Shown here: positions 35,901-63,400 of the stretch, one piece after another | How positions within the stretch are numbered: the first letter of the stretch is position 1 | Layout: every line of letters starts with the position of its first letter | NCBI GenBank assembly: GCA_903813345.2 | Contig: CAIIXF020000001.1 | Location: 3,782,001 to 3,846,000, forward strand | Reading direction: 5' to 3' | DNA length: 64,000 nucleotides | From: Owenia fusiformis | Lineage: Eukaryota; Annelida; Polychaeta; Sabellida; Oweniidae | Translations under genes and position numbers: made by a program | The notes under the pieces: generated by a model | The model's input: only the letters and a program-made list of their open reading frames with translations | What the model was told of the DNA's origin: nothing | The model's database searches: none

Positions 35901-38900
35901 TTCTGATTTAATAAAATTTCTTTGTATATTATGCCCCATTATCTTCTGTTTTTAGTATGTGCCAACAAGAGGGGAACATGTACTTGGGGTAGTGACCAAT
36001 CGCATGGGAGATGTTTATCGTGTTGATATAAGAGGAAGTGAACCAGCCTCACTCTCATTTCTCTCCTTCGAAGGGGCAACAAAAAGAAATAGACCTGACA
36101 TCAAGGTAAAGATTTAGTCCAGATAATAGATTTCATTTTGAAAAATATACATATTATAATATGACATACTCTTTGCAACAGTCTGATTTCGCTTCATCTA
36201 CACTTAGTTTTAATACTAGCCTCTGTATTCCTGGGATTATTACATGTACTTATGGGTAATTCTGGCAACAGAGTATTTGTTATATACTGATATAGAAGAA
36301 TAAATAGTTTGAGCCATATTGCTATAGTCTTCCAACTTTTTTGTGGATTGTATTTGGTGGTTGGTATAATTGGGGCTATATGGACACCCTATACAGGGTG
36401 TCAAAAAACAATGGCACTCCCCCCCCCCTCTATGTATATATTTGTACTTCTCTCATCTGCAGATAGGAGATCTTGTATATGGTAAATTGCTCTGTGCCAA
36501 CAAAGATATTGAGCCTGAGATGGTATGCATCGACAGCACAGGGAGGAGTAACGGAATGGGCGTCATAAGCTGCAATGGTGGCTTCATGTTTACATGTTCG
36601 CTAAACCATATACGCAAGTAAGTATTCACATGTACGAGTGTATAGAGTGCTTGCTTTAATGGTGATACACAAATATGAATTTGGTCAGCTTTTTAAAGGA
36701 CTTTTGTTATCCCGTGAATGAAGTTCTGTATGGACATTGAGAAGCTATCCTTTGTTTGTACAGGTATGTTCATATTCATCCCTCCATCTGTTTGGCTGAT
36801 AACTAATATAACAGTGGTCATGTTTTTGTTAAGTTGAACCTTGATGATTGAAGGCCCATTCATTTACATTGAACACAAATCTTTCCCTGATTTAAATCAA
36901 CAGATTTCAATGGTCCTTTTTCCATATAGAGCTTTGAAATCTCGTTAAAATCTCGTTTTTAAAGAGATTTTGGGAGATCTGCATTTTAACCCTTAAACAC
37001 TGCTACCCACCTAATTACACAGACGTATCGTCGGTGTATCATGGCGGAACTTCCTCCGGGACTAGGTTTCGGTAAGATTTTTTTATTTCCCGATTTACAC
37101 CTACTTATAAGTCACGTTGTGGATAATAATTTGGCTCGAAATTTAAGGAAGATAGTCTAGTTTGAGAATGTGTCGATGGTTTTAGGTTTTATATGTTAAC
37201 AAAGACACAATTCACGTATTTAGTCCCTCGCTTTTCTTACACTGACGAACGACCAATATCAGTGTAATATTGGCAATATTAACTCATTCAATACTGGGGC
37301 AAAAAGCACTATAATACTGACGATATTTTGAAAATTGCCATATATGGTACCTCTGAAATAATATATATTGTATATACATGGGCATACATATATAGTGTTA
37401 TATATCATTTTAAAGCATATGATATACTCTTTCAAAATGAATAGTCTTTTTAAGTCCAATTTTATAAGTTGTCATGGTTACAAGATTCCCAAAAATACAT
37501 TGGGTTTGTGCTTGGACTTGATATCACGTCCTTAGTAGTCAACGTATGTGCTTTATGACGTCATATCAAGTCCTTAGTAGCCGATCGTCAGTGTAAGAAA
37601 AGCGAGGGACTAAATACGTGAATTGTGTCTTTGTTAACATATAAAACCTAAAACCATCGACACATTCTCAAACTAGACTATCTTCCTTAACTTCGAGCAA
37701 AATTATTATCCACAACGTGACTTATAAGTAGGTGTAAATCGGGAAATAAAAAAATCTTACCGAAACTTAGTCCCGGAGGAAGTTCCGCCATGATACACCG
37801 ACGATACGTCTGTGTAATTAGGTGGGTAGCAGTGTTAAAGACGAATTTTTTTTTTAAGTTGATCCAAATGGAATTGTTTCTTAAATCAAAAAATTAAGTT
37901 ACTCTGGCAATACATTTACATGTATTCTAGCCCTACCCTTGCCCTACCAATACCCATGATGCCATCTATTTTCCATTTATATGGAAAAAGTTCAATTGAC
38001 CAACACTGTTTTCGTAATGCATACACATAACATAATAAATAATTAATTTGGTCATTGGCGTCATTTTCGCTCTGTATCTCAAGCTAAGTTGAGAGTGTGT
38101 GTAAATACAGAATATATATTTAAAGTCCCCGTCTAAAGTTTGAAAATATTTTTTTATCATTCATTTACTATTTGTCATGACTTAAAAAGTTATTTTAGAG
38201 ATTTTTGAAAAAAAAAATTTCTTGAGAAAAAAGTTGTGAGCATTTCATTTCTCAAATATTCAAATTTCCCGCCATTTTTCAAAAAAAGTTGAAATTTTTT
38301 AATTATCAAATATTTCTTAATGCATTTCAAAAAAGATTATCTTTTTAATACCAATGCAAAGATTGATCAAAGGACACACTATTTCAAGAATAAAATGCCA
38401 TATTTAATGGGCCACTTCAATGTTTTAGCATATCAAAAATATTTGAAACATTAGTGATGTCACTAAGGTAACAAAAACTTTTTGAAAAAAATTGAAATTT
38501 TTTTTTTTTCGATGTCAATCTTTTCTAAATATGCTAGACTTCAATAATAAACCAATGTTGATTGTCTAAAGGCCCGGTCACACCGCCCGGATGTGCTGGA
38601 GCGTTCCTTGAACGTTGAAAAAATTCATCAACGCTCGTCAACTCGCACAAAATGGGGGAAAAAAACAAAAACACGGGCATTGGATTAGCGGTGCACCGCT
38701 GAAGTCGGCGTTGCTTTAGTGTTGGTTAAGCGGTTGCGAGCGGTAGCTAGCGTTTGTTTAGCGGTAATGCGAGCGTTGGTATAGCGGCGTTCTGCGCATG
38801 AGAGCGTTGCTTCGGCGGGGGTATAAATAGCAGCAGCGTTGGTTTAGCAGCATAACGCGTTTGACTACTGGGAAATTATTTCAAGTGGGAAGTGTTTAAG

Positions 38901-41900
38901 AGTAAAGAACTTTATTGGAATTTGTAACTTTAACAAAAGTCCTTCAAGGATTAAAGAAGAAATGTTTTAAATCTAAAGTGCTTCTATTAATGTAATATGA
39001 CATTAAGAATGAATAACATTACAATTTTCTTTAATAATCTCTCATATCATTTCAAACAAACATATCACAATTTAATCGTTGCATTTCCATTACTTGGAAC
39101 CGATTTACGTTCAAATTGCTTTAACAATGTCAAATAACATTTACAGCAAAGCAATAATCATGACGCATGACAAATTTTTGCATTGCTGTGCGCGCATCAA
39201 CTTTTTGTATAATACCATGACGAGTGCAACATTTTACAAGCTGCGCAGAAAATTCACAGATAATTTATTGAATTGCTTGACGTGAAAACACTAGGTATAT
39301 ACTATATTTGAATAAAGGTCTCAGTAAAAGTCTATTTGTATTAACATTTAATGAAAAACAAAAATCGCATAATTCACCTTTTTAAAATCCAAAATCACAA
39401 ACTTTGAGCGCTTAATTTAGGAATTTACAATGCAAAAAATTGAAATGCCAGACATGAATATATATCAAATGTAAAATGCACAAGTGTCTCCACAGTGTTC
39501 TACACAGTGGTGCATTTCTCCACGTATTTATAGCCAAATTCTGGTCCCACTCCGACACCTCTATACCAACGCCAAAGCAAAGTTCATCGCCGCCATGGAA
39601 CGCTGCGACAACGTCCGACACCGTTCCAACAACCCCATGTACGCTGATAAAACGCTAACAACCGCTCCACCGACGTTTGTGCAACGTTTAATCGCCGCCC
39701 GGGCAACGCTGGCGAAGCAGCGGTGGTCCAGCGTTAAGATTTCTGCGTTGGTCTAGCGGATTCAAGCGTCCACGAACTTGCGTCTAGCGGTGCCAAACTT
39801 TGACTGGGCGTTGGTGGAGCGGTGATAAACTTTGCCAGGGCGTAAAATTGTCCCTTTTTCAACGGTCGCAATATTTTGAGCAGCTCAAAACTTTTGGAGC
39901 GTTAGGATGGCCACTCGAGAAACATCCGCGTTGGCCAAGCGTTTACAGCGTTGCTTTAACGGATGCCAACTTTTGTTAAACGGTGGTGAACGTTTACGAG
40001 CGTTGATGATTTTTTTCAACGTTCAAGGAACGCTCCAGCAACGTTTAGGCGGTGTGACCGGGCCTTAACCAGGTTAAAAGGAAGAATATATTATGTTTAA
40101 GATATCATTGTACCATTGGTTTCTATGAGAACTAAAATTTTGAAATGCATTTTTCTCAGAACCATTTTCATGAACTGGTAAGTTCATTTCTCGCTTATTT
40201 ATGAACTGATTTTCTTAATTTTTTCGGCAAAAAACATTTGAGGATGAATGCTATGCATTGGTATGAATTGTGGCTAACTAAAAGATATTTGTGACCTTTA
40301 AAAGTTAGTTTCAAATAAATTCACAAATTTTGGAACAAAAAGTCTATCAAGAACCACTTTTTGAAATTAAAAAAAAAAGTTTCACATATCACACTTTGAT
40401 AACATTGGGTAAGACTACAATATAAGCCAAAGTGGTTTAAACTTTATACGGGGCCTTTAAGTCACATGGACCAATCAGGTTGCAGGGAATTTCACCATCA
40501 TGGAATAAACTCATTTATTAACTAGAAAACTGGCTGAAGTATAAAAGATGTAATAAGATGCAATCAGCTATTTTATAAAATATGCACCCAGTACTGAAAG
40601 ATCTTGAAGTCTTCAACCATACAATTTTCTCTAGCTTCAGTTATAGGTATCCAATCCAATTTTGAGATGTTACGTTTATATGAAAATGTAAATGGCATAA
40701 AAGGGTGTATATTCATGAAATTAAAAAAAGTTGATTACTGAAATCCAGCTTGAAGTTGGAGAAAAGTTATGGCCTCCTATTAACATTACAGTTACAGAAG
40801 TTTGCTAGTTACAAAGTTTATTAAATAGTTCATTCATGAATATTTACAATAAGGAAATAAATTATGAAAAATCTATATCTTATTCAAATAATAAAATTAG
40901 GAACATATAGTACTTCTTACATTTTACCCTCTTTACGTCTAGTTCTTAAATATAAATTGAACACATACAATTAGCTTGTTAGATTGTTAGAGCATGCCGA
41001 CATCAGTTAGATAACCCTTCAATATCCAGGCCCATAGCCAGGAGGGGGTTCGATGACCCCCCCCCCCACCCCCGGCCACAAAATCTTTCAAAATCATGCA
41101 GTTTTTCATCATTCTGAGCATTTTTTAAGTGATATTGGCCATTTTTGGACCATAATTGACACAAGTGAACCCCCCTGGAATTTTTCAAAAAGTGAACCTC
41201 CCTTGGCAAATCCTGGCTAGGGGCCTGAATATCTGTATTGATCACACTATAGTCTGTTCAATGATTGACTGATATTTACAGTGTTTTTGGTTATCTACAT
41301 GGTGGTTATCTTAGTAGAAACTTCCTTATGTCCATCTGGTCCAAACTTATATATATTGGTATGATTCCCCGCACCAACCAATCTATCAATGTGACATTTT
41401 TTCGATTGGTCAAGACTGAAAAGTTGAAATTGTGAGTCTAAATCTGATGATGGATTAGATAGCTTTTTGAAGCAGACATTTGTACGGCTTTTATCACTTG
41501 GGTCATAGGACAAATAGAGATCTTGATTCAGAAATGAAACCAAATGCACAAGATTTGATGGGGCACCTTCTACCGGCTTTACAACAAAGAACCTTGGGTC
41601 TTCTTCCATACGATGAACATCTTTACGGGGAGGTTTGCCTCTGATCAGTGTGACGGGTGAAGATTCATGCGCTTTGTAACTTTTTTGAAGTTGCAGGAAA
41701 ATCTCCTTAAGGGTGCAAAGCATCATTATCCTTGTAGGACAATGGTTAGGTTCATCCATACCACTGAATGTGTAACATACAAATCGGAAAAACACTTTAT
41801 TTTTGTCATATGTCAACGGAGCCAAACAAATTTTATCCCCATTGAGTTTCAAGTAGTTGCCGGTTTTTATATTTTTCAGTTCAATAGGGATTGCACCATT

Positions 41901-44900
41901 CACTCTCATTATGCCATCTATATAATCAAATGTTAATGCGAAATCTTGAGTTATATCGAGTTCCTCACTGTGGACAGTAACATCACCACTGGATGTGATT
42001 TGAATACTTATTTTAAGTCGTATATACTGCTCAGTGGGTATAGGGATATGATCATTATTATTGACAGTTTCTCTACATAGAAGAATGTCAAGTGTTGTTG
42101 GGTTAATGTTTGTCATTGTATCGATTAAATGGCTGTGGTTCATTTCCTTTAGTGATACTCCCATGAACTCTATCAGCTTGTCGCCCTCTTTCAACCGCAT
42201 CTCATCAGCCAAACCACCACCTAAAACTTCAGTAATTTTATGACTGTACACTTGTTGAGCCTCCATGTTGGTTTCAAGTTTAGCGAGTATGTCCAATGTC
42301 TTGGTTTGTTGATTGTTTGTTGTGTCATTTAGTGAAGGCATTGTTCCATCAGTATATTCTACTTCAGTACAGTTTTGTATGGGATGGTAGAGATGTATAT
42401 TACTCGAATCCATTTTGTTAATTTGGAGGATAGCACCCTTGGTGTAAGTACTGGATCTTGTAGATCTCTGAAACAGATAAGTGTTTCTATTGATACCAGT
42501 TGTCAGATTTGGCTTTTTTGAACAAAGTTCAAGATAGATATCAACAACCCTGACAAACATTGAAATACACAGCAACATTTGGCAACATATCTAAATTGCT
42601 TAGGTTCTTAGAAAAAGAAAGGTGTGTGCTTATTGGAACATGTGTGTGTCTATAAAAGCCATATGAAGGGCCATATGGTATAAATACTGTAGATTGGGTT
42701 CATTTGGCACCTTCTTTAATTTGACGAATTTGGCAAAATAGAAAAAACGCCAATTTACATCTTTACCAAAATTAAGAAAGGATCCCCGGAAATTCCATCT
42801 GGTGTATATTTCCGGATTAGATTTTACAAAATCTGAAAAGAATTAGGGTGATAATCAGAACATGTCACCCCAAATTGGCTCATTGAAGGAATGTGTGTAA
42901 CAATTTGTATTTTGTTCCAGTGTATATGGAAATTGTAGCATCTAGTGTTCGCCAAATTGAAAAGCCGCAAATATGACAAAAATGGCAAAATCACCAAATT
43001 GAGTAGTACCAAATTAACCCAATCTACAGTACATGTTTATATCCTTTAGAGCAATGTGTTATCTTTATCAAAACCATGTCACTCCCCTAAATGCTCTTTA
43101 TCATGCAGAGCTTCTTAACTTGAAATGCACAATCAACAATCAACATGTCCTTGAAGTGTTTACTTTGAATTGACCTCATCCTTCAAAATCGAGCTTCACT
43201 GCTGTACAACATCTATGGAATGAATTATAATATGGCTTGGACCAAGGATGAAGTGACCTGACTTTCAATGAATGAGAGGTCATTATAGCATCCTTCTGCT
43301 ATCAAAATCAATGTGATCTACTTAAATATGATAATGAATCTGCAATACTTACCCAAGAATTTGTTTGTTGTCTGATTTCTCACTGAGTGTTCTCTTTCCT
43401 GATTGTTTGTTGTGCCGATCCTCTATTTTGCTGATCCTCTATTTTCCTGGTTCTCTATTATTATTCTGGCCAACTAGCTGTTCAACTAAAAGTGAAAAGT
43501 GTAGTTAAATCTCAAATCAGAATATGCATGTTATGTAGTCATATATTTATATTCAAATTCAATTCATTCACATGAGTAAATCAATATTGAAGTTTATTTG
43601 ATAAATACCAGTATTTAATGTGTTTTTTTACTGTGCATTCTTAAGAAGCGGGTTGCTCATCTAGAGTTACACAAACCGTCTCAAAGTTCATGTTCACAAG
43701 CTTCTTTGCTCTTAACATGTGATAAGGCTCAAATGACATGAATAGTAAGGTAATTACAATACCAGTATGTATGCTTTTAAGCGATTTGAAGTGTTTTTTT
43801 TGTTTACCTTCTTTTATATTTTTTGCTTGAATTAGATTTAATAAGGGTTAGTGAAGGGCATTTTTCAAAATATTTACACATCTTTCGGAGGATAGGTTGG
43901 TTAAAGTAGTTAAAGAGAGAATCAGAGATAGTGAGCAGCCTAACAAAAAATTGTTTCGATTTTAGAACATATCTGGCTTATGTCATTCCTTTTCATGTCT
44001 ATTTTCTATAAATCCCCAAAGTGCACACTTTATTTCAGGAAAACTAAAGATTGTTGCAATAATGTGTTATTTTTCTATAAGAATGGTTACCATTCTTATT
44101 ATTTGGGATAATTTAAACATTTTTCACCCATTTTTGCACCTTGAATCCATTATAACTTCACCAATTAGTAATATATCGAAGATCTTTTGGGAGATATTGT
44201 ATTTGAGATTGTAAGCAATAGATTAGTAGGTCAATTGGACATGTTGCTTGTAATTTTGTCACCCCTATAGATCTGATTCTGCCTTTAATTAGAAATTTAA
44301 ATCTGTTTCAGACCAACCTATCAAATGTACAGGGTGTTTCATAATGACCATCCCCCCATCCAGAGCCAATCCTAGATCATGTGGCCCCATAATCTATATA
44401 CCATGATAAAGGCTATTCAATTCTGGACTTATGTGCAAAATTTTAGCATGACTGGTCAATGAGAACATAATTTGTAAACTTATGTTGGATAGTCACTTTA
44501 CCCTCAGTTTGTGTGATTTGTGGGTACCATTTCTTATAGATTTAAAGAGAGGGACATATTGCTATATAATCCATTGAATCACTTAGAAGTCTCTTGGTAT
44601 TTCTTTGATATATTTTTATACTTTTGTCTTTCAAATATTACCGGGATATATCCTCAGCATATCCTCAGGCACATGGCTAATTTTGGAAAAAATGTAGCTT
44701 TCAGATCATGCTTAAGGTAAAATGGGTACCTTATGTAGAAGCATGAAGCAAGTTGTTAAGACTGTTGAGCTTACTCAAAGTTATTTAAATAAGTCTAGAA
44801 TTGAACAAGCTTTCATATGATATATAACATATGCTGGTATGCTATTTGGGATTGGCGGTTGATGGGGGGACGGTCATCATGAAACACCCTGTACAATCTA

Positions 44901-47900
44901 ACATACTCCAAAATTTAAATATATACTGTTCATCTGTTAGTTAGTTTGTCCACGCAAAAATTTGGCTGATGCCATAATTTTCAGTATTCAAAAAGCCACT
45001 ATTTTATTATTGATAACTCAGATACTGGTTGGCAGTTTAATATTATCAGGGATGGTGTCCAGTCATCAACTTTCGGTATTTTTTCAACTTGTTTCACATT
45101 GGCAAATGTTTTTTTCAAAATCATCTACAAGTTATAAGAAGTTCAAATTTGACTTCAGATTTGAGATTTGACCTTCAATGACCTTCTCAAGGTCTAAAAA
45201 AGTTTGTTTTTTTCAATTTGCTACAAATTGACCAATTTTTTTCTTCAAATTCCTCTACAAGTTCTCAGAAATTCAAAACTAAGATTGAACTAATAATATT
45301 GTGAGCAACTAGGTGGCAACATTTTCTCATGTTGATACCTTTTCATAGTCTTGCTTTAACCCCTTATGCCCCCCCCCCACCTATACACCATACCGCCACA
45401 ACAAGGGAAGGTGAAGTGAAATGTTTCTGAATATTAAGTACATTTATTCCTGATAAATTAATTAATTTAAAAAAAAGAAAAATAAACAAATAAGAAAATT
45501 TTAAGATGTAAAGATATAAAAAGATTTTAATATGTAGAAATAAATAGATTTTTCCTTTTGGCAAGATCGAAATATTTAACTGTACTTACCATTCAGAATG
45601 TGATCTTTGACTGAAATGAGATATCAGTAAGATTAGCTTTATTTAAAGTGTAGAGAATGTTAAGTGAGTCATGCACTTCCTGTGTATTACTGAAATTTTC
45701 AAATTTTATTAAGTTATTTTTCTCTTCCTGGTCCATTGTCTCTATTTTTCTTTCAAAATTTTTAATCTTCTTCCTGGTTCAAAGTCTTAAAACTAATTTC
45801 TGTCACCCAGCCAGTATGGAAGATGAGAACACTACCCTATTGGTAAATAAAGAAGAGCTTATTTAAATGTGTTTTTAATAACTTCACTTCTTTTAAGTAT
45901 GAGATCTTTTGAAAAAGGCACTTATCAAATCTGAATCTGCATGTGAGAGAGAGCGAGCTAATGAGTGTGTCACAGAGCCTGATTTAGAACTACCTGGTTT
46001 ATGACACGCATTATTAGATATTTACAAATTCCAAGCCAGTTCACTTGTCATACTAAAAAAATAATACTCCTACGCATAAATTGGTGGCTGTTAAATTTTG
46101 AATAAACTTCCCTGATTCTAAAAATAGGATTTGCATTCCAAGGGAAAAGGGAACTCTAAAATTAGCAGGTGTGACAAATATATGCATTTATAAGGTAAAT
46201 AAAATTGTCAAATATATCATGTGCTTGGATTACAAAGTTGTAGGATGCTTCATATGCCTTGCTTGCTGTGGCTACAATTGAATGAATTTTCCTGTACAAT
46301 AAAGCTAAATTGCAGAAAATTTTGATTGGCTCATTACTAGAAAATTAGGATGTTAGATCAAGGGGAATCTATATTAAATGGATGACTACAATTTCCATTT
46401 GTTAACATTTGATCTTCTGAAGAGGGAGGATTTTTTAAATATTATAGAAGTTTTCAATAGAAAGGTGTGATTCTGTTTTAAAAAACGTCAATATCCCCAG
46501 TAACATAAACCTTATTTTTCATGAGATATGATCAACATATAAACTTCCAGGTCATGATTGAATACATTCATATTAAATGTATGTATGTAATGTACTTTAA
46601 TGACTGTGAGCATTTCTTTGGTTTTCTTCAACAGTGAGGTCATCATAGTTTCAGTACTTGTACTATTAGTCCATATTCATTTACTAAGTTGATTTTCAGT
46701 CATGAAAAATATAAAAACTTCATACCTTTGTAATACAAGATGCTATTCTTTTAGTGTTCAAAGATGTGACACTTTTTGTATTTTGGGATGATTTTCCGTG
46801 GGCGTGGGCTATATTTTGAGTTTGTACGCCCACTCGGGGATTTCTGATCTTGTGGGGGCTGGGGGTATGTGCCCCAGGAATTTTTTCCAAAGACAAACTT
46901 TAAATATTCTATTCTGCTAAAACTTAATGGTTAAATATACAAATACAGAATCATCAATAAATGTGCAAACAAATTAATGCATTTTTAACACATTTTTAAT
47001 TTTTGTACCAGGCTTTCATATTGGTACTCGGTCAACTCGGACCCTAGTTAACTCGGACCCTAGTCAACTTGGACCCTAGTTAACTCGGACCCTAGTCAAC
47101 TCGGACCCAGTTATATTCAAAATAGATCAGAGGCATTTTGCTATATAAGAGGTGAAAGCAATTAACTTGCAAAATATTAAGAATATTGGAACAGTTTAAG
47201 ATATAATTCAATTCATTACTCAAATCTTTAAATAATGATGTTTATGTATATTCCTGATTGGTCAAAATAAATATTTTAAAACCTTTATACTTTTATGCTA
47301 GTTGCCTCATATGTGATCAAAATATTCTTTATAATTAAATAAGAATGATTTTGATTCATTTTATATTGACTTTATTTAGAATTTAGAATTTATCAAAAAC
47401 TTCATACCTTTGTAATACAAGCTGCTATTAATCCTCTTTTAGTGTTCAAAGATGAGACACTTTTTGTATTTTGGGATGATTTTCCGTGGGCTAGGGCTAT
47501 ATTTTGAGTTTGTACGCCCACTCGGGGATTTCTGATCTTGTGGGGTCTGGGGGTATGCGCCCCAGGAATTTTTTCCAAAGACAAACTTTAAATATTCTAT
47601 TCTGCTAAAACTTAATGGTTAAATATACAAATACAGAATCATCAATAAATGTGCAAACAAATTAATGCATTTTTAACACATTTTTAATTTTTGTACCAGG
47701 CTTTCATATTGGTACTCGGTCAACTCGGACCCTAGTTAACTCGGACCCTAGTCAACTTGGACCCTAGTTAACTCGGACCCTAGTCAACTCGGACCCAGTT
47801 ATATTCAAAATAGATCAGAGGCATTTTGCTATATAAGAGGTGAAAGCAATTAACTTGCAAAATATTAAGAATATTGGAACAGTTTAAGATATAATACAAT

Positions 47901-50900
47901 TCATTGCTCAAATCTTTAAATAATGATGTTTACGTATATTTCTGATTGGTCAAAATAAATATTTTAAAACCTTTATACTTTTATGCTAGTTGCCTCATAT
48001 GTGATCAAAATACTCTTTATAATTAAATAAGAATGATTTTGATTCATTTTATATTGACTTTATTTAGAATTGGAACCTATAGTATGTTTAAAAAGAAATT
48101 AATTCAATTTAGCCTGTTTTGTATAATGCTGTTATATTAAGTTTGATTAAGAAACCCAATTAAGAAATCTTGTATCCTCTGATAAGCATTTAATTAGGGT
48201 GTTGAAGTAAACAGAATATATAGCTAGTATTACATTGATTCCAATATACAGTATGGTGAAATGTATAGTGCATTTGTGTTTTAACAAATATTCTTTCTAG
48301 TCTGGCAGAAATATAGGGTTATTTTGACATTCAATCGTTTTCTTCGGATTACAATGTTTTTATTTTAACTTATCAACATGAATATAGGATTGGGACCTCA
48401 AAACCACCGGATGCCGGTGCGGCACCCTTGGGCAACTCTCTACAGAGCAATTCTTATACCCCCCTGATAAAATATACAGGGGGTACTATAAGACACCCTC
48501 ATATCTCAGATACTGATAAATATATTAACTTGAGATTTTCAGGAATTAGTTTTAGTATGATGCTTGACATGTATGACAAAAATCAAGAAAAAATCTAAAT
48601 CCGTTGCTATAGCAACAGCAACAGAACACTATTTGTTACCATAGAGATGCATTATTTTGCTGGTTTTCAACATTTCTTCATATAGTTGATTCTTAAACTA
48701 GTATATAGTATTACACTTGTATATAGGACACTGCATATTTTATTTTTAGTATATACATGTATATCAAATGAAATCTAATGAATTCATACAGTAGTTAGGT
48801 TGGCATATAGTCTAGACTTTGGCATTTAGAACATGCATCATAATAAAATCTAATGTAATTATACAATAGAGAGGTTGGCATAGTCTAGATTTTGGCATAA
48901 TGTCTAACTTTTATAAGCATTTGCTTTCCTCATCTGAGCAATCAGACTACTGGGGGACCCTGTATAGCTTCTGGGGGCCACTGGGGACCATCATATAGAT
49001 TTTAAAGGCACTGTGAATATTTGATTTAACATTGAATTCAATTGGATATTTCTCTAACAGTGAAATTTAATGGCCATGAAACATTTCAGATTGACAACAT
49101 CGTGAATTTTTGTCAGTGAAAATTTGGGCTTACTTATGGGGGCCACTGGGGGCCCTCGTATGGTTTCTGGGGGCCACTGGGGGCCCCTGTATAGCTTCTT
49201 AGGCCACCATATAGCTTTTTTGGGCCACTAGGGGCCCCTGTATAGCTTCTGGGGGCTCCTGTTTAGCTTCTTGGAGACGCTGGGGGCCACCATATAGTTT
49301 TTGGGAGCCACCGTATAGCTTCTGGGGGCCCATGTATAGTTTCTTGGGGCCATTGGGGGCCAACGTACAGCTTCTGGGGGCAACCATATAGTTTCTGGGG
49401 GCTACTGGATGCCATCCTATAGCTTCTGGCAGCTGCTGGGGGCCACCGTATAGCTTCTGGGTACCATCATATAGCTTCTGTGGCCTACCATATAGCTTCT
49501 TGGGGCCACTAGGGGCCCCTGTATAGCTTTTAGGGGCCACTGTAAAGCTTCTTGGAGCCACTGGGACCACCACATAGCTTCTGGGGGCTACTAGGGGCCC
49601 CTGGATATGCTTCTGGGGGCCACCATATAGCTTTCCGGGGCCACCGTATAGCTTTAAGGGGGCACTAGGGGCCACTGATTAGATTCTGGGGGCTACTGGG
49701 GACCCCTGTATAGCTTCTGGGAGTCACCATATAGCTTCTAGGGGCCAGTTGGAGCCCCTGTATAGCTTCCGGGGGCTACCATATAGCTTCTGGGGGTTAC
49801 TATGGGTCCCTGTATAGCTTCTGGGGGCTCCTGTTTAGCTTCTTGGGGACACTGGGGGGCCACCATATAGTTTTTGGGAGCCACCATATAGCTTCTGGGA
49901 GCCCTTGTATAGTTGCTTTGGGCCATTGGGGGCTACTGTATAGCTTCTGGGGGCTACCATATAGCTTCTGGGGGCCACTGGATGTCATCCTATAGCTTCT
50001 GGGGCCTACCATATAGCTTCTTGGGGCCACTAGGGGCCCCTGTATAGCTTTTGGGGGCCACTGTAAAGCTACTTGGAGCCACTGGGGACCACCATATAGC
50101 TTCTGGGAGCTACTAGGGGCCGCTGGATATGCTTCTGGGGGCCACCATATAGTTCTCCGGGGCCACCGTATAGCTTTAAGGGGGCACTAGGGGCCACTGT
50201 ATAGATTCTGGGGGCTACTGGAGGCCCCTGTATAGCTTCTGGAAGTCACCATATAGCTTCTAGGGGCCATTTGGAGCCCCTGTATAGCTTCTGGAAGTCA
50301 CTATATAGCTTCTAGGGGCCATTTGGAGCCCCTGTATAGCTTCTGTGGGCTACCATATAGCTTCTGGGGGCTACTAGGGGTCCCTGTATAGCTTCTGGAG
50401 GCCACCTTATAGCATCTTAGGGCCACTGGGGGCCCTGTATAGCTTCTGGGGCCACTGGGGTCCATGGTATAGCTTCCGGGGGCCACTGGGGGCATTTTTT
50501 ATTTGAACCTTAAAAATTAATCTATTTTTGCCAGATTTGGTGGCTGTCGAGGTGGGGTAAAATTAAATTATAATTTTTTTTTCAAATTCATGTGACTATT
50601 TATCTCTAAAGCAGCACTTTTTTACCTAGGGAGCATAACCTTTTCAAGAAGAGTTATTTTGGACCACCTTTTTAAAGAAAGTGAAATGTAAAAACCTGAT
50701 TATTAAGTGCTGTTACCATAGCAACTGAAATGTTAGATATATTACATAAACCATATGATGAATTATTTCATCTTTACTTCTAATCATGTATTTAACAGAT
50801 ATGTATATACTTCAGATGCTTTAAGAATCAAGAATATGAAGAAAATTATGAAACTCAGCAAAATAATGCATTTCTACGGTAACAAATTGTGTCTATTTCT

Positions 50901-53900
50901 GTTGCTATAGCAACGGATTAAGATTTTTTCTTGATTTTTGTCACATGTGTCAAGCATCATACTAAAACTAATTCCTGAAAATTTCAAGTTAATATATTTA
51001 TTAGTGTCTGAGATATGAGGGTGTCTTATAGTACCCCCTGTATATTTTATCAGGGGGGTATAAGAAATGCTCTGTAGAGAGTTGCCCAAGGGTGCCGCTC
51101 CGGCATCCAATAGTTTTGAGGTCCCAACCCTATGTTCATGCTGATAAGTTAAAAAAAAACATTGTAATCCGAAGAAAACGATTAGCTTTGAAGTTTCTGC
51201 CAGACTATTCCAAATTCATTTTCTAAACATATGCGTAAAATTACTTTCTGTTTGTCGAAAATACATGATTATTTCACAACACCTTTTTATTTCATATTTC
51301 AAAACTTCAAGGCGCATTTAATGGAGATACAATGATTAAATAATTTGGTGATCTTGGTAATAATTGAATGGGTGGGGAATTTGAAATATATTTTGATTTA
51401 ATAAATCAAAGAATTACAAATGCAAATTGCAAAGGGGACATGCCATTAAGAGGCCATTCTCTGACTTAGTCATTTTTTCAAAAGTGTCAAAATAAAAAAA
51501 TTCATGAAAAGTCCTAAAAATATTCTGAATAACAAGTTGAATATATATATTTAATGATGGCACAAGCAAAAGTCTGAAAATTAACATGAAATGAAGGGTT
51601 TTGACAGATGCAAAAGATGGTAGATTTGTGATGAAGAAATAGAGGTTTTTGCAGTAACAACACAATTACCTCAAAGTTATCCGTTATGAGAGGCTGAGGA
51701 CTAAACTTGACATAATTTTCAATCTCAGATTATCAGTAGTATCTAACTTAAGCCGGACAGCCACTCAAAATGTATATGGAGCCCATAAGATTCATTTTTC
51801 TCAATTGAAGTCACTATTTCTGTTTTTAGCTTCAGAGGAAAAGAGGTACATGAACATGCTAAGTTTACCTAGATCACAAGGCTTACCACAAATATAAAGT
51901 ATATAGGAATAGAGTTGATATGTGTGAAAACCTTAAACTTCACATTTTATTGGGGATGGAACTTGTGGACCATGTGTATTTCTAACTTCTTCACATGTGC
52001 ATGGATCTAAAATTGTGGCAGCCATCTTGGATTTGTCATATTATGTGGACATGGTTTTGGTTGTGCTGAATTTGTTTCAAAATAACATTTCTTGTATACC
52101 TTCGATAAGTGAGATAGGCATTTGAAATTAAATACAGATAGTATACTTGACATTTAATGCATTAAACAGTAATACAATTCATTCTTACATAATAAGTGAG
52201 ACCAGACAAAAAGTTGTTATTGTGTTAGTTTAACTGGGCATAAATTACACTCATTGGCCTTGGTTTTCTTAATTGGCTTGGATAAAATGTTGTTCTGTTT
52301 ATTCAGAAAAGGAGTATAGTTAAATATGCAAGTTCACATTCGTTCCATCCTCTTGTAGAAATGAATCTCATATTATTTCATCTCAAATATAGAACACAAA
52401 AATATAATAAAAAACAAGTTTCTATTAATTGCAAAAGTTAGCTTCTATGTCATGACTGAGTTTGGGTTCCGCTTCTAGGGAAAAAAATATCCATCTGGAA
52501 ATATCGTATTGACCATTGCTATATACACTCCATATTTAATCCTCCCAGTAAATAACATTGATATACAGTATACAAGTATATATGACATCGAGGATCTGGT
52601 GTTTGGGTAATGTGAGACATGAGGCCACTTGTCTCTTTGAATCTCATATTCAATATTCTTTCTTTAAACCCTCATATTTATTAATATTTTTGGAGTGGTA
52701 ATTCAATTATGTCTCTATTTTTTATTCGTTATCCCATAGTTGAACTCTGTTCCGCTCTGTTAGGTAACATGAAAACATATTTATGATATTTTGCAAATGC
52801 GTGGAAAAAGTGATATCTGTGGAATACGGAAAATATTTCACAGATATTACCTTTTGGCAGGGATTTGAAAACTACCACCAATATGATGTGTTTTGTACAT
52901 AGTGATTTCATGACATCACGGGGATGAATGAATGAATGGATGTTGTTTTAATATGCTTTGTTTAGTTTTAGAGGTGAACTATGGGAAAAATAGAACATCC
53001 TATGAATTTTCGTGATATTGTGTTAATCCAACTCATTGATATCAATATCTGCGCTAATTCGCTATGCTAACTTGGCAAGATATTGATATCAACTCGGAGA
53101 TAAAGATAAAATCATTTAAAATCATATGATATCCTATACATATCCTTTACTGTGCTACAACTTTCTCATATGTTATATATTTTGGCACAGGCCATCATTT
53201 ATTTTCCTTGAATTCATGCTTTTGTTCCTCGTTTTAGAAATGAGAGGAAATCTTTGATTTTCCTTGTATTTAAGTTGCTTAAATGTTGCCCTGTAATGTT
53301 GATAAAAGTCAATAGTAATCCATTACAGTCACAGTTGAAATGTACCCATTGCTAGCCCAAAACCTACCAAAATAGCATTTGCATTTTGTCAGTATTGCCC
53401 TATGTGCTTTTCCATGAAAATAATTTTAATCGTATCTTTTCTTCAGTATTTCATATATTACATTTTAATATATTTAAATTGGTTAATATTGATATGCTAT
53501 TTACTTAGACAACAATAAATAAAGAATTTTTTGTAAAAACACCAAAAATGGTATATGATCCTTAAATGACTGTTGTGTGAACATCAAAGGTCAAAATTCG
53601 CTGAAATTGTATTTTTATAAAGCACAAATGATTTTTCTTCAATATGATATGCATTATTATCAGATATCTTTGGGGGCTAAAAAGGGCCCTTAATGACACC
53701 CCTCCTTTATCAAACATTGTATTATCATTTGATTTGAAACTTTAATGTTTTACTTTTTTAAGTAATTCATTAAAAATCATTGGCTTTCAATTTAATTAAC
53801 ATGTTTATAACTATAACTTGGTTTGAAGAATTAAAGTCAACAAAGTTTAATTCACATTGAATTTGTAATTTATTGTCAAATACTATTTATTTGTAATATA

Positions 53901-55187
53901 AATTAACCGGTTTCATGTAAAATCAAACTCTTGGTTATTAAATATTTAATCCTACTGGTATATGATTTCACAATTAGGCTGAGTGGTTTATGAGTGAATC
54001 GAAAGTGTCAGAATTTTTTCACAATTTTCAACCATTGTTTGGTCTAACAATTATATATGATTAATGTTTTATAAAAGACTTCTATATTTCTTTTCATTTT
54101 AATGCTCAAACTGAGGAAAAATATATAAAAATACATCGGTCCAAGTTGACTAGGGTCCGAGTTGACTAGGGTCTGAGTTAACTAGGGTCCGAGTTGACTA
54201 GGGTCCGAGTTAACTAGGGTTCGAGTTAACTAGGGTTCGAGTTGACTTAATAAAGCAATGTGGAATCTATGCATGGTATGTTGAATATTTAATAAATTTT
54301 TAATTCATAGCAACATTTGACTGAAAATAAATATTGATTGAGAAGCATAGTCTATAAACATTTTGATTGAGTCTATATAATTAACTTAATAAAAATATGC
54401 TCTCTTGCTCCATAGATACCAGCAATTTCATTATGTTACAATTACAAAATATATTCCATTCACTTCTCTACTTTCGCTTTTGATATCTAATGATTCTTGA
54501 ACTCAAATTGCATGCTCTTTCCCCTTTAATAGAAATTTGGGGTCAGCCCATTTGTACTAAATGAGGACTCAGTACAAATAAGGAATGTTCATACATGGTC
54601 ATATGGTGCAACATGACATTTTTTGACATTTCATATATTTATTTCATAAACCTGGCTCTTAATATAGGATATTTTCATATTATTTTGTAAAAAATGAATG
54701 TCACCTCCAAAAGTATAGTATTGGTCAATATAGTCTCTAACTTTTTCTGGACAGTGTTCATTGGTTGGTGTCTGTAACAAATGGCAGTCGGCATCTGTAA
54801 CAAATGGCAGGTGGTGACATTTTGCATGTTCATGCCTTGTTCAAGCACTTCACTTCATTCCATAGCTGCTATATAGCAGCGAAGCCCGATCTTGAAAGAT
54901 GACACTGCTCTTCATTTCATTTCATTTCGTCTGGTATATATTTATTTAAAATGAACATTTTTTCTAATTTCAGGATTCTGTCCCCACAGTTCAATCTACT
55001 GAAGACACTAGGAAATTCTTTGCCGTTTGAAGTAGCAGTCGGCATGAATGGTCGGATATGGGTGAAGGGAAGATCTATTAAAGAGACAATAGCTATTGTT
55101 AATGGACTAAATAGTGTGGAATATATGGACACTAATGAAATTAAAGTAATGTGTAGAAAATTGTTAGACACTTTGGCAGGTTTCTGA
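29960..55187 (+). CDS. EXOSC3: exosome complex component RRP40
   Basis: Exons 29960-30148, 35956-36105, 36463-36617 and 54974-55187 join in frame to 235 aa, shorter than the vertebrate form (about 275) mainly at the N-terminus. This is one of the three S1/KH cap subunits of the nine-subunit RNA exosome and guides RNA into the 3'-5' decay channel in nucleus and cytoplasm. Signature stretches: GPGL and [18 protein letters not shown] (N-terminal domain), [20 protein letters not shown] (S1 domain), [31 protein letters not shown], and [15 protein letters not shown] in the KH domain. Intron 3 is about 18.4 kb, holds an antisense gene (41295-42413) and is filled with repeats; intron 1 (5.8 kb) is also repeat-rich. 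A polyadenylation signal is at 55209. Confidence 0.97.
30352..30416. repeat. short hairpin with 18-bp arms
   Basis: GTTAAACTCAATAACGGC (30352-30369) pairs with GCCGTTATTGAGTTTAAC (to 30416), with about 29 bp of loop, in EXOSC3 intron 1. Function unknown. Confidence 0.7.
30753..30916. repeat. long foldback hairpin (arms about 72 bp)
   Basis: GGAATAAATAATGATAGGCC.. on the left pairs with ..GGCCTATCATTATTTATTCC on the right through CCATTCAATATGGTGAAATT and GAGTTGGACAGAATGTT. The loop holds AAAGCACGAACCGAAGG. The open frame starting at 30781 runs across the hairpin and is a by-product of it. Confidence 0.8.
31627..32465. mobile_element. foldback/TIR element, 840 bp
   Basis: Arms of about 129 bp: 31627-31755 and 32336-32465 (for example GGCCTGACTGCGTCGCTAAC / GCGACGCAGTCAGGCC, and GGTTAGAACCCGAATC / GATTCGGGTTCTAACC). 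The small plus-strand frame at 31763-31945 resembles no family I know. Non-autonomous. Confidence 0.8.
32492..32939. mobile_element. non-autonomous hAT-type element with 8-bp target duplication
   Basis: Begins TAGTGTTGTCGCGAT and ends ATCGCGACAACACTA, a 15-bp terminal inverted repeat. It is flanked by the identical octamer GACAGTGG at 32484-32491 and 32940-32947. An 8-bp duplication with TAGTG-type ends is the hallmark of hAT transposons. At 448 bp with no transposase it is a MITE mobilised in trans. Several internal ATCGATGCATCG-like palindromes are present. Confidence 0.92.
32995..33845. repeat. tandem 'TTGATAACTCAAATACC' repeat array
   Basis: A (GTCC/GTTC)n run at 33040-33085 leads into irregular units marked by GATAACTCAAATACCAGTTG (near 33092, 33280, 33430, 33548, 33745) followed by AGCTCTGCTCGAGAAGG and 'CAAAATGGCGGCCATTTTT'. 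Spacing is about 115-200 bp. Non-coding. Confidence 0.75.
34786..35955 (+). other. remainder of EXOSC3 intron 1
   Basis: AT-rich intronic sequence with one poly-C run (35323-35341). I see no gene, RNA or transposon end in it. Confidence 0.5.
36997..37834. mobile_element. 838-bp foldback element with 250-bp arms next to TTAA
   Basis: Arms 36997-37248 and 37583-37834 are near-identical reverse complements (CACTGCTACCCACCTAATTA at the tip, GGGACTAAATACGTGAATTG inside). TTAA lies at 36993-36996 and at 37835-37838, with a one-base offset at the left tip. Each arm carries ATGGCGGAACTTCCTCCGGG.. followed by GGTAAG, which looks like a start codon, ten codons and a splice donor. No transposase. Confidence 0.85.
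38569..40066. mobile_element. 1.5-kb TIR element ending AAGGCCCGGTCACACCG
   Basis: Left AAGGCCCGGTCACACCGCC.. and GAGCGTTCCTTGAACGTTGA pair with TCAACGTTCAAGGAACGCTC and GGCGGTGTGACCGGGCCTT at the right end. The interior is full of short GCGTTG/GCGGT repeats in both orientations, giving higher GC than its surroundings and fortuitous open frames at 39476-39756. No target duplication is obvious. Non-autonomous. Confidence 0.85.
40067..41290. other. 3' flank of the nested PDZ/trefoil gene
   Basis: AT-rich intronic DNA in EXOSC3 that must contain the 3' UTR of the minus-strand gene ending at 41295. TTTATT at 40818 could be its polyadenylation signal. It holds a poly-C run at 41058-41066 and no other gene. 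Confidence 0.45.
41295..42413 (-). CDS. PDZ domain plus interleukin-1-like beta-trefoil protein
   Basis: A single coding exon gives 372 aa. I start at the ATG at 42413 (MDSSNIHLY): the open frame runs 55 codons further up, but a clean acceptor (CTGTTTCAG|AGATC) at 42468 makes that part intron, and the upstream exon is untranslated. Residues 58-115 look like a PDZ domain ([27 protein letters not shown]). Residues about 175-335 have three beta-trefoil-like repeats: [34 protein letters not shown] and [24 protein letters not shown]. The 'x-YLS..., F-x-F/V-x-K, SQFQLF' order matches the last two thirds of interleukin-1 family domains. No signal peptide is present, as in IL-1 cytokines. FGF or another trefoil is possible. 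The gene lies antisense in EXOSC3 intron 3. Confidence 0.85.
   Translation of the reverse strand: MDSSNIHLYHPIQNCTEVEYTDGTMPSLNDTTNNQQTKTLDILAKLETNMEAQQVYSHKITEVLGGGLADEMRLKEGDKLIEFMGVSLKEMNHSHLIDTMTNINPTTLDILLCRETVNNNDHIPIPTEQYIRLKISIQITSSGDVTVHSEELDITQDFALTFDYIDGIMRVNGAIPIELKNIKTGNYLKLNGDKICLAPLTYDKNKVFFRFVCYTFSGMDEPNHCPTRIMMLCTLKEIFLQLQKSYKAHESSPVTLIRGKPPRKDVHRMEEDPRFFVVKPVEGAPSNLVHLVSFLNQDLYLSYDPSDKSRTNVCFKKLSNPSSDLDSQFQLFSLDQSKKCHIDRLVGAGNHTNIYKFGPDGHKEVSTKITTM
43353..43478 (-). other. probable 5' UTR exon of the PDZ/trefoil gene
   Basis: On the minus strand this block ends TTCTTGG|GTAAGT, a strong donor, and begins after a CAG at 43479. Joined to the acceptor at 42468 in the frame of the coding exon, it has an in-frame TGA and no ATG after it, so it is untranslated. 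Confidence 0.55.
44327..44895. mobile_element. 569-bp TIR element ending TGTACAGGGTGTTTCA
   Basis: TGTACAGGGTGTTTCATAAT GACC at 44327 pairs with GGTCATCATGAAACACCCTGTACA ending at 44895, and the CCCCCC tracts also pair. No transposase frame. Non-autonomous DNA element. Confidence 0.85.
45085..45350 (-). repeat. GTCACCACC-family element, truncated, inverted
   Basis: The reverse complement of this segment begins GGTATCAACATGAGAAAATG then TTGCCACCTAGTTGCTCACA and TATTAGTTCAATCTTA, matching the 5' end of the copy at 2166, followed by one or two GACCTTGAGAAGGTCATTGA units. Confidence 0.75.
47027..47108. repeat. 17-bp repeat ACTCGGACCCTAGTCAA, copy A
   Basis: About five tandem units of CTCGGACCCTAGT(T/C)AA in the first half of the 690-bp duplication. 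The same array recurs at 47715-47796. Confidence 0.9.
47715..47796. repeat. 17-bp repeat ACTCGGACCCTAGTCAA, copy B
   Basis: Identical in structure to the array at 47027-47108, carried along by the 690-bp duplication. Confidence 0.9.
48298..51210. mobile_element. 2.9-kb inverted-repeat element enclosing a minisatellite
   Basis: TAGTCTGGCAGAAA, AATCGTTTTCTTCGGATTAC, GGGACCTCAAAAC and GGTACTATAAGACACCCTCA on the left (48298-48660) are mirrored on the right (50860-51210), giving arms of about 340 bp. The middle is the minisatellite at 49130-50490. No transposase frame is seen. Confidence 0.85.
49130..50490. repeat. GC-rich minisatellite, GGGGGCCACCATATAGCTTCT units
   Basis: Dozens of variant units of 22 to about 32 bp built on GGGGGCCAC(C/T)..(G/A)TATAGCTTCT. 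A longer period is also visible: the block beginning near 49483 resembles one near 50003. Open frames on the minus strand (APRSYMV repeats) follow from the period and the lack of stops. Confidence 0.92.
51211..54135. other. intronic DNA of EXOSC3 without recognisable content
   Basis: AT-rich sequence. I see no coding exon, RNA gene, TIR or tandem repeat in it; the longest open frames are about 60-80 codons and look random. Confidence 0.5.
54138..54250. repeat. 17-bp repeat array in inverse orientation
   Basis: Seven tandem units of CGAGTT(G/A)ACTAGGGTC, the reverse complement of the arrays at 47027 and 47715, about 6.4 kb away in the same intron. Confidence 0.92.
54765..54845 (-). repeat. 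GTCACCACC-family fragment
   Basis: CTGTAACAAATGGCAG appears twice, then GGTGGTGACATTTTGCATGT and CATGCCTTGTT. The reverse complement matches the fragment at 9984 and the tip of the family (ACAAGGCAT..AACATG). Confidence 0.7.
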
Positions 55188-61815: not shown

Positions 61816-63400
61816 TTAGTGACATTTGGTTACAAACCTGGCTGCTCTTCTCTGTACCTGTTCCAACATATCAATATCTTTTTGTCGGTATGGATCCCAT
61901 GCCGAGCTGGCATACTCTAAATTAGGCCGGACTAGTGACTTGTACGCCTGAGCTTTCACTTTTTCAGGGCATTGATGGAGGTTGCGCCTGAGGAAACCAA
62001 GCACCTTATTGGCTTTGGATACAATAGTTTGAATATGTGTAGTCCAGCGTAAGTTATTAGTGATGTCAATACCTAGGTATGGGATGTGTGTTACCGACTT
62101 AAGGTTTTCCCCTAGCATGGTGTAATTGTGAATGATAGGGGATTTACCTTTGTGAATATTTAGCACATAGCATTTTGATGGATGGAATTTCATTTGCCAT
62201 GTTGATGCCCAGGAGACCAGTTTATCAAGATTCTCCTTTAGTGTTAATGCATCTGGCTTGCTTTCAACTGTCATGAATAAAAGGCTGTCGTCAGCAAATA
62301 GCTTAAGACTGGCTGAGGATGATAGGTTATTGCCCATATAATTGATATAAACAAGGAAACAGAGTGGTCCAAGAACTGTTCCTTGAGGAACTCCTGATTT
62401 TACTGGAGTTTTTGAACTTGATTCGCCATCGAGCACTACCTGTTGTGATCTTCCCACAAGCCAGGATCTGAACCAGTTCAAGTTATTATTGCGAATTCCA
62501 TAATAGTCGAGTTTGAGCAAGAGGCGTTCGTGAGCCACCGTGTCAAACGCTTTGGAAAAGTCTAATACCAACATGTCTGTTTGTTTATGGTTGTCGAGGG
62601 CCCAAGCTATATTCTCTATTGTTTGACAAGTTGGGTTTCACATGAGTGCTTTGACCTGAATCCATGTTGGAAGTTTACTAGAATTTCATAGAGGTCAAAG
62701 TGGGCAATAATATGATGGAATATAATATGTTCCATTATTTTACATGGAACTGACGTCAGAGATACAGGCCTGTAATTCACAGCCTCATCTCTTCGTCCCT
62801 TTTTGTAGATAGCAGTAACATTGGCATGTTTCCAGTCCATAGGCACTAAGCCTTCATCGATGGACTGTTGAAAAATTATTTAAAGGAATGGCGATATGCT
62901 GTCACTGCATTCCTTCAGGACCCTAGTCGGAATAAGATCGGGTCCAGTGGCTTTTGATGGATTTAGGCCAGTTAGCAATTTGTGAATTCCTTTTGTCGAA
63001 ATTTTGATATTTGGCATTTCACGAATTTGACTGGGTACCATTGTCGGTAGAGTAGCATCCTCATCTGTGAATACAGAATTGTATTGGTCATTGAGGATGT
63101 TTGCTTTCTGGCCGGCGTCTGTTATTTCGTCGCCATCTTTGTTACGGAGCACGCTGATACCTGATGCATCTTTGCGTTTAGACTTTATGTAGCTCCAGAA
63201 GCGTTTGGTAATGCCTTTGTGCTGAACATTCTCATTTATGATTTCGCTTTCATCAATGTCGAGCAGATCGTTGATGTAGCGTTGATGTTCTTTACGAATT
63301 TCACTATGGATTAATTTCCATAGTGATTTGTATTTATGCCAATGATGAGGTTCATTTGAACACAACACAACACCAAAATTTATGAAATTGGTCATATTTT
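61816..63400 (-). mobile_element. decayed non-LTR retrotransposon (jockey/CR1-like reverse transcriptase)
   Basis: Minus-strand fragments read as one reverse transcriptase: RKEHQRYINDLL, ATGPDLIPTRVL, VNYRPVSLTSVPCKIMEH, LDFSKAFDTVAHERLL, SGVPQGTVLGPLCFLVYIN, the FADD catalytic box, and RPNLEYASSAWDPY. It is broken by an in-frame TAA at 62880-62882 and by a one-base frameshift near 62620. The endonuclease region is missing at the 5' side (about 63400), and the 3' end stops at 61816 without a poly(A) or simple-repeat tail. The motif order fits the jockey/CR1 group; the exact clade is uncertain. It is a dead, doubly truncated copy in or upstream of ISCA1 intron 1. Confidence 0.93.

Follow-up and report, generated by a model that had tools for sequence, protein, structure and literature searches.

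The annelid Owenia fusiformis possesses a gene for a two-domain protein in which a PDZ domain is followed by a predicted β-trefoil. The gene is located on the minus strand (positions 41295-42413) of the stretch of DNA analyzed here, 64,000 nucleotides (nt) of contig CAIIXF020000001.1 (positions 3,782,001 to 3,846,000; GenBank assembly GCA_903813345.2), to which we refer as the window. We consider it probable that this gene, P1 (P0001), is functional and encodes an apparently leaderless protein of the IL-1/FGF superfamily, whose trefoil is most like those on the IL-1 side and whose domain content is that of nIL-1F, an IL-1 ligand of fishes. The classification that we favor for P1 is thus that of an IL-1/FGF-superfamily protein resembling nIL-1F; membership in the IL-1 family proper is not proven, since P1 shows neither the Pfam nor the PROSITE feature of that family. 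A relative of IL-1 in an annelid would be surprising; published work restricts IL-1 ligands to vertebrates. If the assignment is confirmed, IL-1-type signal proteins would predate the vertebrates by a wide margin.

That P1 is a real gene under selection is evident from its reading frame and from its paralogs. The frame encodes 372 amino acids (aa) without an internal stop in a single open frame, and its translation contains all four of the trefoil-type motifs quoted in a preliminary description of this DNA. We rejected a chance open reading frame as an explanation, since at the base composition of the window 372 open codons are expected with a probability of 9e-13 at one place and of 1e-7 across the window. 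In the 498.26-Mb assembly that contains the window (525 contigs), we found an intact paralog, P2 (P0002), on C5, which possesses 346 aa in its longest frame, a single coding exon, and the same succession of PDZ domain and trefoil; it shares 171 of 329 aligned residues with P1 (about 50%; dN, the non-synonymous rate, 0.36; dS, the synonymous rate, 1.45). Two more distant paralogs, detected by searching with P2 and then with P3, are arranged in tandem on C1, with the exons of P4 within C1:58759365-58763989 and those of P3 within about C1:58797344-58800778. Both consist of four mapped exons separated by GT-AG introns, and in both exon B has 161 nt and exon C 115 nt. The trefoil region of P3 is 59% identical to that of P4, 26% to that of P1, and 29% to that of P2. 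The paralog family is under purifying selection, with dN/dS values (NG86) of about 0.25 for P1/P2 and about 0.26 for P3/P4 at dS values above 1. A recent pseudogene or retrocopy was likewise rejected for P1 on the grounds of its intact C5 paralog and of the dN/dS of about 0.25. As expected for an animal gene, no relatives were confirmed in prokaryote genomes or viral contigs. About 1.2 kb upstream of P3, we noted a minisatellite of about 3.3 kb that is open in several frames (L009; C1, about 58792735-58796100).

The PDZ-like domain that had been proposed for P1 is confirmed by sequence profiles. The Pfam model PF00595 matches residues 58-110 of the predicted protein (42084-42242 on the minus strand) through its positions 27-80 of 81. 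The score of the isolated protein is 21.6 bits (E 2.8e-4), just below the cut-off of 23.2 bits, while a six-frame search of the genome gave 24.0 bits at the same place, above the cut-off. The C5 paralog scores more weakly (16.1 bits), and a profile built from the two paralogs matches a DLG4 chain (E 5.9e-5). Judged by eye from the paralog alignment, the PDZ-like region is wider and would comprise residues 38-117 (42063-42302). The PDZ cores of DLG4, of the InaD-like protein, and of SNX27 can be aligned with residues 58-110, but the part of P1 corresponding to their GLGF-type carboxylate-binding segment is not recognizable: profile positions 1-26 remained unmatched, and no such loop was seen by eye in the paralog alignment. 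Because the N-terminal third with this loop is not recognized, peptide binding by the P1 PDZ domain appears doubtful. The domain is followed on the minus strand by a linker that is partly conserved with the C5 paralog (residues 118-169; 41907-42062), by the predicted trefoil (about residues 170-336; 41406-41906), and by a C-terminal tail that is mostly absent from the C5 paralog (residues 337-372; 41298-41405).

No hydrophobic stretch is present at the predicted N-terminus of P1 or P2, as judged by hydropathy only (maximal values of -0.15 and 0.1, respectively, in an 11-residue window). The proposed lack of a signal peptide thus holds at the predicted ATG, from which P1 appears leaderless, but a further coding exon could precede it. 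An acceptor-like sequence, CTGTTTCAG, is located at 42468-42476 (minus strand) and would place the exon start at 42467, 54 nt upstream of the ATG. A similar sequence in P2 ends 20 nt upstream of the second ATG, which encodes residue 12 of P0002. Since such a putative acceptor precedes the ATG in both genes, a further exon upstream of the P1 ATG is likely, and it could be coding because the P1 frame continues without a stop across the putative acceptor to position 42590. On the other side of the gene, a candidate poly(A) signal (AATAAA; 40817-40822, minus strand) is found about 470 nt past the stop codon. No RNA families were detected in the window at gathering score.

It is highly probable, judging from sequence profiles and layout, that the C-terminal half of P1 forms a β-trefoil, as the preliminary description had put forward. 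A profile of this half built from all four paralogs and searched against 177,635 PDB sequences (E<=10) yielded 19 matches, of which the first 12, and 14 in total, are designed β-trefoils (best E 8e-6). With the profile of P1 and P2 only, the first nine of 29 matches are designed trefoils. The twelve strands of the fold can be placed by eye at residues 175-335, and the paralog alignment is further evidence for the trefoil region. Fold comparisons of the AlphaFold models are weak and suggestive only, because the predicted local distance difference test score (pLDDT) is 32 for whole P1 and 40 for the trefoil modeled with seven paralog rows. With the low-confidence trefoil model as query, IL-33 ranked first both in Foldseek (probability 0.90, E 0.065) and in VIA-align (Z 4.5 over 115 residues, root-mean-square deviation 4.8). 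The best 50 of 107 Foldseek matches (E<=10) include 12 members of the IL-1 family and no FGF, and the best 50 VIA-align matches include 21 members of the IL-1 family and one FGF (FGF-2). The fold check by AlphaFold and Foldseek suggested for P1 thus put an IL-1 ligand first, but at a pLDDT of 40 and with no match at E<=0.001, this match is weak.

We favor, with good confidence, a placement of this trefoil in the IL-1/FGF superfamily, and with somewhat less confidence a placement on its IL-1 side. The claim of an IL-1-like trefoil is well supported as far as the fold is concerned, while the IL-1 identity is favored but not proven. For the comparisons, sequences of IL-1, FGF, and other trefoil proteins were used, those of IL-18 and IL-33 being checked against the PDB. 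Aligned by hhalign to eight human IL-1 trefoils, the profile of the worm family scored 27.7 with 95 columns in register, a value not reached by any of 300 column shuffles. Against six FGFs it scored 21.0 with 30 columns out of register (three of 300 shuffles as high), and FGF against IL-1 gave 18.1. The IL-1 score stayed between 27.4 and 31.0 when any member other than IL-18 or IL-33 was left out. Three of the four single members (P2, P3, and P4) favor IL-1 over FGF. Pairwise scores do not tell the families apart: a Z of 3 was attained by six of 32 pairs with IL-1 trefoils, one of 24 with FGFs, and one of eight with other trefoils, as compared to six of 48 FGF-IL-1 pairs. The segment "F-F ... 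FES-PG-WF" is described as conserved in IL-1s (PMC12108812). On a matrix of this motif, the score of P3 (14.5) exceeded that of every one of 75,144 background windows (maximum 9.9), and P4, with 9.8, ranked behind two of them. The Pfam FGF model (PF00167) matches none of P1, P2, and P3, while four FGF exon matches of the same genome pass its cut-off. IL-33 is the first fold match of the low-confidence model, carries together with IL-18 the signal of the profile comparison, and shares with P3 and P4 the spacing of an FF...ES...FL-type segment, but most pairwise scores with IL-33 and IL-18 are near chance. We know of no PDZ domain in human IL-18 or IL-33.

The introns of the distant paralogs provide a further line of evidence. 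The P4 phases are 1 at the exon A acceptor, 1 at the A/B intron, 0 at the B/C intron, and 1 at the extra C/D intron; the three mapped introns of P3 have phases 1, 0, and 1. In the hhalign alignment, the B/C intron of P3 falls on the position of an intron in human IL-1β and the A/B intron two residues off. IL-1β genes typically possess phases 1, 1, and 0 in their last three introns, with the twelve strands encoded by the last three exons (PMC4880838, the source also of the PROSITE IL-1 pattern used here). The phases 1, 1, and 0 of P4 agree with this pattern apart from the one extra phase-1 intron, and the upstream phase-1 intron of P4 in particular agrees with IL-1.

The strongest clue for the IL-1 side, in our view, is the domain content of fish nIL-1F, a parallel that goes beyond the preliminary description. 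The lumpfish protein is described as an IL-1 ligand of 352 aa with a PDZ domain, an IL-1 domain, and the IL-1 signature, encoded by seven coding exons; elephant shark and coelacanth are represented in its clade, which is placed between IL-1β and IL-18 (PMC7144542). Compared by this published description only, the two proteins are of similar length (352 versus 372 aa) and, if the trefoil of P1 is IL-1-like, alike in joining a PDZ domain to such a domain, but nIL-1F has seven coding exons and a recognizable IL-1 domain, whereas P1 is encoded by one exon and matches neither the Pfam nor the PROSITE description of IL-1. From the published description we infer that the two-domain form in P1 and nIL-1F may be of common descent.

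Several observations weigh against an assignment of P1 to the IL-1 side, or to the trefoils in general. The designed trefoils gain score from their three identical repeats; in the five PDB alignments shown, single matches reach 7-9 bits and the P1-family query is matched through the first repeat only. No natural IL-1 or FGF chain is found among the 19 PDB profile matches (E<=10), and P3 alone retrieved no trefoil at E<=10 but two CdiI chains (E 0.85 and 1). Both AlphaFold models are of the low confidence reported above, no Foldseek match reaches E<=0.001 and no VIA-align match Z>=5, and millipede hydroxynitrile lyases (Z 4.2 and 4.1), which we take to have a lipocalin-like fold, are level with IL-33 in VIA-align. 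The Pfam IL1 model (PF00340) has no match in P1 at E<=5 or in P2 and P3 at E<=10, nor in an exon-wise search of the genome that was run without a positive control. The PROSITE IL-1 signature occurs in none of the four paralogs; it matches four of the eight human IL-1 trefoils and fails in IL-18, IL-33, IL-36G, and IL-37. The hhalign probability of the IL-1 match is 17%, its reversed control scores 20.5, a profile of fascin and hisactophilin scores 22.1 (0 of 300 shuffles as high), and the IL-1 score drops to 20.8 without IL-18 and to 20.6 without IL-33. P1 alone favors FGF (19.6 versus 12.0 for IL-1), and pairwise mean Z values do not separate IL-1 (1.18) from FGF (0.73) and other trefoils (1.48). 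On the IL-1 motif matrix, FGF2 scores 20.0, above P3, and P1 and P2 fail. No PDZ exon was found upstream of P3 (about 30 kb) or P4 (about 34 kb) with a two-sequence hidden Markov model of low sensitivity, no conserved PDZ exon was seen between the P3 and P4 upstream stretches compared, and none of the 129 matches of the genome-wide PDZ search lies near C1:58.7-58.8 Mb. As to the introns, the exon A acceptor of P3 is ambiguous, with the nearest candidate giving phase 2, and an FGF gene found in this assembly (L014; C2:3988465-3989084) has introns of phases 1 and 0 that interrupt the trefoil where those of P3 and P4 do, on either side of a 104-nt exon (counted by hand). Because an FGF gene shares the phases 1 and 0, the introns back the IL-1/FGF superfamily without deciding between its two sides.

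This last similarity would fit an explanation that we consider unlikely, namely that P1 and its paralogs are a lineage-specific trefoil family derived from FGFs, whose fusion to a PDZ domain occurred independently of nIL-1F and whose members may reside within the cell, as the FGF homologous factors do. In addition to the L014 introns and their 104-nt middle exon, it could account for the higher hhalign score of P1 alone against FGF, for the score of FGF2 on the IL-1 motif matrix, and for the best PDB profile matches, the designed trefoils at the top of that list being, as we take it, derived from FGF1. Yet the family as a whole compares less well with FGFs and out of register, the Pfam FGF model is unmatched in P1, P2, and P3, and FGFs are absent from the best 50 of 107 Foldseek matches. 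To our knowledge, no PDZ-trefoil protein exists in the FGF family. For IL-1, such a protein is documented in nIL-1F (PMC7144542).

We judge it rather improbable that P1 acts inside the cell as a PDZ-trefoil scaffold or lectin-like adaptor, its trefoil binding a cytosolic partner instead of serving as a secreted signal. The trefoil fold is also known from fascin, MIR, and lectin proteins, and such a role would be in line with the lack of a leader at the predicted ATG, with the N-terminal position of the PDZ domain, with the presence of fascin, lectins, and the IP3 receptor among the fold matches of the model, and with the fascin and hisactophilin profile score (22.1, above all 300 shuffles). 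The precursors of IL-1 are leaderless too, however, the same domains are described for the fish nIL-1F, and the intron phases match those of IL-1 and FGF, in a comparison limited to these two families. Still to be weighed is an unrelated β-rich domain whose repeats resemble a trefoil by chance. We regard this as very unlikely in view of the designed trefoils that come first with both the four-paralog profile (14 of 19) and the two-paralog profile (the first nine of 29), although the AlphaFold models are not confident, hhalign did not detect an internal three-fold repeat, P3 alone has no trefoil match, and the hydroxynitrile lyases are level with IL-33.

If P1 is the nIL-1F-like protein that we favor, its mode of action can be envisioned only tentatively, and the steps of expression, release, and receptor binding may well differ from the following proposal. 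The protein would be made in the cytosol, with the PDZ region taking the place of an IL-1 pro-domain, where it may anchor or mask the trefoil; the trefoil would be freed by damage or cleavage and could then engage a receptor with Ig domains that is coupled to TIR signaling. The genome contains 123 matches to TIR domains among 150 scored candidates, many of which occupy long open frames comparable in size to Toll receptors, and two Ig_6 matches that barely exceed the cut-off. An Ig-TIR receptor was not identified upon inspection of one TIR gene and one of five Ig_6 matches, the latter (L028) resembling a generic I-set domain by eye. The TIR gene inspected (L008, L027; C10:3.184-3.197 Mb) appears to encode an EGF-TIR receptor, with EGF-like repeats by eye, a probable transmembrane exon, and a TIR exon; three TIR exons in short frames follow each other in this region.

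In a 2022 review, no IL-1 gene is recorded outside vertebrates, while IL-1-receptor-like genes are listed for cnidarians, protostomes, and deuterostomes (PMC9020223); in a research paper of the same year, IL-1 is likewise described as a vertebrate innovation missing in invertebrates and jawless vertebrates (PMC9382457). We found no published report of a PDZ-trefoil protein or of an invertebrate IL-1 ligand in the titles and abstract openings of the papers listed, subscription papers and preprints lying outside this scope. An annelid PDZ-trefoil family with the domains of nIL-1F would hint at the source of IL-1 and offer a candidate ligand for the orphan receptors of invertebrates. One possible scenario, which we put forward with reserve, is that a PDZ-IL-1 protein is the ancestral form of the IL-1 superfamily, already present in the last ancestor that annelids share with vertebrates, kept as nIL-1F and as the worm family, and stripped of its PDZ domain in IL-1β and IL-18. 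Under this scenario, the shared phase-1 and phase-0 introns would imply that IL-1 and FGF stem from one intron-bearing trefoil gene, and IL-1 ligands would therefore not be an invention of the vertebrates. The introns in common with FGF hence bear on a single versus separate origin of the IL-1 and FGF cytokine families. Any single-origin reading would be weakened by the argument that the origins of IL-18 and IL-33 are distinct from that of IL-1 and that the trefoil fold can evolve more than once (PMC5861070). The annelid family would also make the question of IL-1 origin testable; developmental and adult-tissue transcriptomes of O. fusiformis have been published (PMC9977687).

The preliminary description had also noted a one-exon coding region lying antisense within a housekeeping gene, and both parts of this statement are borne out. 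On the plus strand, two S1-domain pieces of EXOSC3/RRP40 (matched parts 35956-36108, PF21262, E 6.5e-20; and 36454-36561, PF21262, E 5.1e-11) and a KH-domain (KH_6) piece (matched part 54987-55076, PF15985, E 6.8e-11) were assigned to a single EXOSC3 gene on the basis of their order and strand. The pieces (35956-55184) lie on both sides of an approximately 18-kb gap with P1 inside it, and since they are taken as one gene around it, P1 is located antisense in an EXOSC3 intron. This position, together with the absence from P1 and P2 of three introns found in P3 and P4, so that P1 carries none of their trefoil introns, makes an old retroposition plausible, and an intron loss before the P1/P2 duplication would be a plausible alternative to an old retrocopy. 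The suggested retroposed origin thus retains some appeal, but we did not find an intron-bearing PDZ-trefoil parent, and the acceptor-like sequences before the ATG of both P1 and P2 weigh against a retrocopy.

About 60 nt past the P1 stop codon, a short element resembling a miniature inverted-repeat transposable element (41022-41232) is present, with terminal inverted repeats of 22 nt that are 91% complementary. A related repeat is found after the C5 paralog in opposite orientation, and beyond the coding region the DNA of the P1 and P2 loci is similar only in one such repeat. Elsewhere in the window, separate open reading frames on the minus strand encode a Roc GTPase fragment (7154-7579; PF08477, E 4.4e-10) and a Neuralized domain (10310-10873; PF07177, E 3.1e-43). 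Open frames of repetitive sequence are located at 49054-50562 (minus strand), and a reverse transcriptase fragment at 61816-62574 (minus strand; PF00078, E 5.1e-23) represents the remnant of a retroelement.

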